A stretch of 64,000 bases of DNA from Spirochaetales bacterium. Its GTDB lineage: Bacteria; Spirochaetota; Spirochaetia; SZUA-6; RPPD01. A program made the translations under genes and the position numbers. The notes beneath the pieces were generated by a model. It was not told the origin of the DNA, ran no database searches, and saw only the letters and a program-made list of their open reading frames with translations. The number at the start of each line of letters is the position of its first letter. Position 1 is the first letter of the stretch. Shown here piece after piece: positions 11,651-25,908 of the stretch. The DNA lies in NCBI GenBank assembly GCA_016929065.1, contig JAFGJO010000036.1:1-64000 (forward strand), read 5' to 3'.

Positions 11651-12252
11651 GATACCTCGCTTGTTTTTGCCTGAACGCCTGTCCATATAAATGATCCGCC
11701 GATGACAGCACCGGTGACCAGTACCGAATACGGGATGGGGATGTTGAAAACAAACAGCATAATGCCGGCAATGATGATGACAAACGCCTGAAACATGAGC
11801 GGCGGATACGCGGAAAGCGCATAGCCGAAGAAACAGAGGGCAACGAAGAAGTTGATAAACACCGGAACCAGGTGTCCGGCATTCAGCTGCAGCAATGTAA
11901 TTACCAGGATCGCGAATATGATGAATATTCCAATGAATGCTGCGAAAAGGTATCGGAATGATTTTGTAAAAATCGGGATTGATTCCTTTGCCGCTTTCCT
12001 GATGAATCCGAGGGCTTCAAACAACCCGCCGATACAGAGGACCGGGAGCCATACTTTCAAGGCCAGATCATAATCCTTGAAGCTGAAATAGTATTCGGTA
12101 AAAAAGTGGATCATCCCGCCAATAATGATTACCGCGCCCCAGATAAAATATGACCATGATTCGACAAGGTGTCGTTCTTCCACCTTCTGAAGCATATCCT
12201 TGATAACCTGCAAATCCTGAAGCCGGTCGTTTTCGTTATGATTCTTGTTCAA
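11647..12252 (-). CDS. Six-helix membrane protein, first gene of the Lol-like operon
   Basis: 201 residues. A soluble, acidic N-terminal 30 residues (DRLQDLQVIKDMLQKVEER) precede about six hydrophobic helices. I do not recognise the family, but membrane proteins of this shape are often encoded with one-domain winged-helix regulators, as here. It overlaps the regulator by four bases and opens the operon. Its role could be signal sensing for the regulator or a subunit of the transport system. Confidence 0.65.
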   Translation of the reverse strand: MNKNHNENDRLQDLQVIKDMLQKVEERHLVESWSYFIWGAVIIIGGMIHFFTEYYFSFKDYDLALKVWLPVLCIGGLFEALGFIRKAAKESIPIFTKSFRYLFAAFIGIFIIFAILVITLLQLNAGHLVPVFINFFVALCFFGYALSAYPPLMFQAFVIIIAGIMLFVFNIPIPYSVLVTGAVIGGSFIWTGVQAKTSEVS

Positions 12253-12271
12253 TGCTTGCTCCTTTAAAGTA

Positions 12272-12334
12272 CAAAGTTACTTTGCAATGCAAAGTTGATA
12301 TATAAAACATACACACAGAAACAGCTGCTGTCAA
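12272..12334 (-). promoter_or_regulatory. Promoter and operator of the Lol-like operon
   Basis: Minus-strand TTGACA (12329-12334) lies 17 bases from TATGTT (12306-12311). Around and just after the expected start of transcription are two overlapping dyads built from ACTTTG units: CAAAG-TTA-CTTTG (12272-12284) and ACTTTGCA-A-TGCAAAGT (12279-12295). This is a typical repressor site, probably for the winged-helix protein of the operon. The -35 and -10 both lie in or next to the left arm of the long palindrome. Confidence 0.65.
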
Positions 12335-12530
12335 GAGGTTATTATAAATATAATAAATACCTGTGATATCTTTCAGTGTACAATATATGTGATTTTAAAC
12401 ATCCTCCTCGCTACTGCAGGTATGAAACGCTCGGCGGCTGTTTAAAATCACTTTTTACATGATTGAGATATCACAGGAATAATGTAAGTTATAAGACTGC
12501 TGTTTCTGTGTGTGACATGTTTTATATATC
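12297..12530. repeat. 234-bp nested palindromic element with conserved apical 19-mer
   Basis: Three nested inverted repeats share one centre. Outer arms 12297-12325 and 12499-12530 match over 29 bases apart from a three-base insertion. Middle arms CCTGTGATATC (12360-12370) and GATATCACAGG (12467-12477) are perfect. Inner arms GTGATTTTAAACA (12389-12401) and TGTTTAAAATCAC (12439-12451) are perfect. The 37-base apical loop holds CTACTGCAGGTATGAAACG (12411-12429), repeated exactly at 25834-25852. No coding frame. The gene-free interval 12253-12744 contains this element and the next repeat pair. Confidence 0.8.
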
Positions 12531-25757: not shown

Positions 25758-25809
25758 GGAGAAACTTCACAGATGATCCAAATCAGTGAATTCTTGTACT
25801 GTTGTTGTC

Positions 25810-25877
25810 GCGGGATTTTTCACTCCCCCTTCACTACTGCAGGTATGAAACGTTCGGGGGTAGATAAAAAATCCCGC
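25810..25877. repeat. Second copy of the conserved-apex hairpin (CTACTGCAGGTATGAAACG)
   Basis: Outer stem GCGGGATTTTT (25810-25820) pairs with AAAAATCCCGC (25867-25877); inner stem CCCCC (25825-25829) pairs with GGGGG (25856-25860). The loop contains CTACTGCAGGTATGAAACG (25834-25852), identical to 12411-12429, followed in both by a pyrimidine and TCGG. Stem bases differ from copy 1 (CCTCC/GGCGG there) yet pairing is kept, and both copies share GATTTT...AAAATC in the outer stem. Confidence 0.75.
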
Positions 25878-25908
25878 TATTGCAGGGGGAAATCATGGTT
25901 ATCGATTA

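Follow-up and report, generated by a model that had tools for sequence, protein, structure and literature searches.

The question raised by this locus is what a nested palindrome is doing at the promoter of an operon that starts at 12252 on the minus strand and whose products are a membrane protein, an HTH_34 regulator, a LolA-like protein, an ABC ATPase and FtsX/MacB-type permeases. A sequence-only reading of the window, by which we mean the whole stretch of 64,000 nucleotides, had proposed either a regulatory structure or a mobile element that brought the promoter. Our analysis indicates that the segment 12360-12477 is most probably one copy of a genome-specific, non-coding, MITE-like palindromic interspersed repeat, inserted beside a promoter that was already there. 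The family is best described as a new one of a known kind, the bacterial small palindromic interspersed repeats. In this way, the suspected promoter cruciform has become a countable repeat family, and the native promoter has been separated from the insertion (Table 1).

Table 1. Features of the promoter, the palindrome and the hairpin element in the window.
Feature	Position	Strand	Support
Promoter -35, TTGACA	12329..12334	-	consensus scan; TTGAC at the equivalent place in 9/11 relatives
Promoter -10, TATGTT, 17-nt spacer	12306..12311	-	consensus scan; equivalent in relatives TACTTT or TATATT-like
Operator-like palindrome CTTTGCATTGCAAAG	12280..12294	-	ACTTTGN5CAAAGT-like repeats in relatives
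Second, imperfect operator-like palindrome CTTTGTACTTTAAAG	12262..12276	-	
Outer arm: native promoter spacer and -10 region	12297..12325	.	
Outer arm: promoter spacer and -10 region, duplicated and inverted; unique to this copy	12499..12530	.	
Type-A dispersed hairpin element (family copy)	12360..12477	-	R1 match 117 bits, full length 1-122
Terminal arm P1, 5' side (CCTGTGATATCT)	12466..12477	-	double-sided changes at 6/12 pairs
Terminal arm P1, 3' side (AGATATCACAGG)	12360..12371	-	
Inner stem P2, 5' side (GTGATTTTAAACA)	12439..12451	-	
Inner stem P2, 3' side (TGTTTAAAATCAC)	12389..12401	-	
Conserved apical loop GAGCGTTTCATACCTGCAGTAGCGA, possible tandem G-A closing pairs	12408..12432	-	near-identical in 7 copies, stems diverge
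Second type-A copy in the window	25783..25899	-	R1 match 90.8 bits

The palindrome and the hairpin family inside it

The nested inverted repeats are present where the sequence-only reading had placed them, and the palindrome is real, far beyond chance. The region folds as RNA at -94.6 kcal/mol (z -9.47) and as DNA with a z score of -10.4, and no dinucleotide shuffle was as good in either case. Arm lengths of 29, 11 and 13 bp had been given; the inner 13 bp is correct, the middle repeat measures 12 bp instead of 11, and the outer 29 bp is made of 14 bp (12297-12310/12517-12530) and 15 bp (12311-12325/12499-12513) split by a 3-nt offset. It had also been argued that so long a palindrome is unstable and that its retention points to selection or recent arrival. 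This argument is weak because internal loops and the 25-nt apical loop interrupt the arms. The middle (P1) and inner (P2) repeats are part of a dispersed repeat, and the outer repeat is not.

When the palindrome was used as a query against the genome (3.49 Mb, 69 contigs), significant partial matches were obtained at four further loci, each with its centre at the inner hairpin. The census of family copies was made by covariance-model and pattern searches. The loop pattern TTCATACCTGCAGTAG gave six copies at one mismatch or fewer and two weaker ones, and type A, the kind found here, has seven copies in the genome, two of them in the window. The seven aligned copies have a common layout, in which a 12-bp terminal arm is followed by an internal loop and a long stem, and a short GC stem then leads to an apical loop of 25 nt. 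This apical loop is close to GARCGNTTCANACCTGCNGTAGYGA, and the stem sequences differ and are mostly still paired. The P1 arms (CNGTAATTYCTY / RRGAATTACNG in most copies) are terminal inverted repeats common to the copies. Double-sided changes were found at 21 of 34 pairs, a number reached in 0 of 500 shuffles, and with the register slid only 4-10 pairs showed them; the set is small (seven sequences) and the structure was fitted to the same set, so the slid control favours the structure.

A covariance model built from the seven type-A copies (R1) also matched related elements, in the same genome only, which we call type B. There are about 16 of them, with the terminal arms and AT-rich stem as in type A, ends that are TGCAGTAATTCCTT..AAGGAATTACTGCA-like, and a different head, GYGNGAGTCAT..CGAGCRC, that carries an extra hairpin in the loop of some. 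A search of the genome with a model of the type-B core (R2) gave a count near 16 and re-found two type-A copies. The family totals about 25 copies in one genome, with a unit of about 118-139 bp. Its architecture is a pair of inverted terminal arms and a long AT-rich stem bearing one of two interchangeable heads, the 25-nt loop of type A or the GAGTC loop of type B. One chimera (L089, C47:16319-16412) has a type-A left half and loop fused to a complete type B. Two deletion derivatives (C65:99007/99067 and C28:70312/70370) have lost part of the middle and kept both terminal arms. Most copies of type B and some of type A have a CGTC/TGTC-like tag, mostly paired, where the head stem begins.

That one stem can bear either of two heads raises a question open to testing, namely what conserves the loop. 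Type A could be a functional structured RNA (an sRNA or a 3'-UTR element) in which the 25-nt head is a binding site and the stems are free to change if they stay paired. This would agree with a conserved head on diverging stems, with the strong covariation, with the compensatory A-U to G-C change that adjoins possible tandem G-A pairs, and with the four type-A copies that lie downstream of genes. However, selection at the RNA level would favour G-T over A-C mismatches on the motif strand, and the asymmetry gave no overall signal (28 versus 23; 16 versus 6 in type B, 12 versus 17 in type A). Moreover, no other genome searched has the head, the window copy lies upstream of the promoter, and template switching can give covariation without selection. 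We consider an RNA function of this kind improbable. It is also improbable that the conserved stem and terminal arms serve as a module presenting alternative sequence-specific heads (25 nt in type A, GAGTC in type B) to a host protein or RNA that recognises them, which would make the family a new class of structured-RNA or single-strand DNA recognition element.

Two other candidates for the loop were rejected. The type-A loop resembles type I-E CRISPR repeats; the genome has no match to Cas1 (PF01867), and a CRISPR-derived repeat was dismissed. A short conserved peptide, ERFIPAVV, was dismissed on the grounds that the loop changes are non-synonymous (ATA/ACA/AAA in one codon) and that a stop precedes the peptide in the window copy.

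The native promoter and its inverted copy

The left outer arm does contain the -10, as had been noted earlier, and TTGACA-17-TATGTT was recovered by a consensus scan at 12334-12306 on the minus strand. A homologue of the regulator was detected in 16 of 30 relatives, and the sequence was inspected at 11 loci. At nine of these 11 loci, TTGAC is followed by a -10-like hexamer and ACTTTGN5CAAAGT-type repeats before the first gene. R1 and R2 detected no element in the relatives with the same operon promoter, which are too distant for exact junctions. Because the relatives carry promoter and operators without the element, the promoter is read as native and conserved, and the element as having been added about 25 bp upstream of its -35. 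The proposal that the element brought the promoter is refuted by this comparison.

Tandem CTTTGN5CAAAG operator-like palindromes lie between the promoter and the first gene (12262-12294), and similar repeats are found at the operon across the order. Since the operon encodes an HTH_34 protein and has these tandem palindromes, it is likely that this winged-helix protein controls its own operon through the CTTTGN5CAAAG operators. The nested palindrome itself could be imagined to regulate the Lol-like operon as a cruciform or an operator, as it overlaps the -10 and spacer of the promoter. We regard this as highly improbable, since in the relatives the operon has a promoter and operators of this kind and lacks the element, and the inner part of the palindrome occurs at two dozen unrelated loci. 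The inserted repeat would lie outside the operon mRNA if the conserved promoter is used, because it is upstream of the -35. It is probably neutral for the operon or a weak upstream boundary to read-through.

The outer arms make the locus unusual in that the promoter next to the hairpin seems to have been duplicated, inverted, on the other side of it. The outer-arm score was 48, while the maximum in 60 shuffles was 26, and among the 23 copies only that of the window had flanking arms well above shuffles. The copy in C52 owed its flank score of 33 to its terminal arms, which fall outside the core that served for this comparison, and the copy in C62 was marginal (24 versus 26). In the consensus scan, the inverted promoter copy had no matching -35 and was not an evident second promoter. 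Template switching is documented as an origin of inverted copies and of compensatory stem changes or stem repair (PMC8794818). The simplest account, drawn from one copy, is that the outer arms arose by a template switch at the hairpin. With the element already in place about 25 bp ahead of the -35 of the older, conserved promoter, such a switch would have copied the promoter, inverted, to the far side and produced the outer 29-bp arms. On the other hand, the 29-bp repeat could be older than the insertion, for example a two-site operator, and its arms are nearly concentric with the element. One arm, however, is the -10 and spacer of the promoter, and the relatives that were read showed no second inverted copy upstream, so that we find an older outer repeat unlikely.

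Distribution, placement and possible mobilisers

A search of 60 relatives with R1 gave no match, and R2 had none in 25 other genomes of the order or in 392 others of the phylum, the larger R2 searches having stricter filters by which weak copies could be lost. Weak pattern matches in relatives were not hairpins of the type-A kind and were taken as chance. Across 84,980 species, the type-A loop pattern had one match, a chance one inside a coding stretch, and viral contigs gave none. The viral, phage and plasmid collections contained no match to the element. In Rfam 15, the window had no match above the gathering score, and 16 loci with copies matched only tmRNA and tRNA; sub-threshold miRNA matches were read as hairpin noise. 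As far as sampled, with one genome of the genus, the family appears to be restricted to the species or genus.

Of the 23 copies whose surroundings were examined, nearly all lie between genes. In 15-17 of them (a hand count, in which some ORF calls are uncertain), the element and the adjacent gene or RNA gene have their 3' ends towards each other, and 17 of 23 corresponds to a binomial p of about 0.02. REP-like repeats are reported to lie mostly downstream of genes (PMC3733652), and the placement of the copies agrees with this pattern. The window copy, upstream of an operon, is the exception.

The idea of a mobile element was upheld in part: the inner 118 bp belongs to a structured repeat that is dispersed over the genome, and no mobiliser was found for it. 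Inspection of the flanks of the 23 copies gave no consistent target-site duplication, and for this reason we do not class the family as a proven MITE. Examination of terminal-arm matches, together with a search for transposases of the Y1_Tnp family, brought to light neither an autonomous element nor a transposase that shares these ends. The terminal-arm matches examined were element copies, remnants or chance sites, and no transposase was seen between paired ends. The genome has a single Y1_Tnp gene (C20:31345; L143 1474-2001), which encodes 175 aa, the size of a RAYT, and is by size and type a candidate mobiliser. This gene is downstream of ammonium-transporter-like and PII-like genes (named by eye). 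Within 1.5 kb on either side of it there was no significant family copy, and a degenerate half-copy beside it was rejected because random slices and Markov sequences did as well.

A system of the REP/REPIN type, with this RAYT-like protein as mobiliser, would account for dispersed palindromes in a genome with one Y1_Tnp gene of RAYT size, and for the CGTC/TGTC-like tag of the head stem. Nevertheless, no family copy of significance flanks the gene, the unit is 118-139 bp against 20-40 bp, the tag is largely paired and not free, and CGTC repeats apparently have no dedicated transposase (PMC3733652). Such a system therefore seems to us a poor candidate. For the MITE-like family, we suggest that mobilisation in trans of a non-autonomous element probably accounts for its spread, and that the arms may stay complementary via hairpin-templated correction, selection for folding, or both.

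Likeness to known repeat systems

The MITE-like ERIC/RU-1, Correia/NEMIS and RPE repeats are about 105-155 bp, largely intergenic and multi-copy, and form a long stem-loop with terminal inverted repeats (PMC2229807), much as in our family. In contrast, only about 25 copies in one genome were found here, with two alternative heads on one stem and no target duplication seen; the comparison is one of description, and the search of Rfam gave no match. The GTAG/CGTC-tagged REPs and HH dimers are often species-specific palindromes, mostly downstream of genes, whose inverted pairs can fold into one hairpin (PMC3733652), and CGTC/TGTC is present at many head bases in our family. The unit here is 3-6 times longer, however, the tag is paired rather than free, and the RAYT-like gene has no significant copy beside it. 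Stem-loop families catalogued in 40 bacterial genomes (PMC2267715) are alike by description, as repeated intergenic families with a shared predicted secondary structure.

The Caulobacter CIR repeats are about 110 bp and expose GANTC (PMC2229807), and a conserved GAGTC is likewise exposed in the type-B head. The fold of CIR differs, with two arms joined by a linker. The loop of type A, to which the window copy belongs, has no GANTC. In the type-B apical loop, the conserved GAGTC (alignment A2, L101-L116; GAATC in the C38 copy) fits GANTC. Two type-B elements in opposite orientation lie about 130 bp apart in one intergenic region (L068 1501-1639 and ~1771-1841; C49:74404-74542 and 74674-74744). 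A terminator-like hairpin, GGGGCTGTCC or GAGGCTATCC..GGACAGCCCC, adjoins the 3' end of many type-B elements (L065, L067, L068, L069, L075 and L078).
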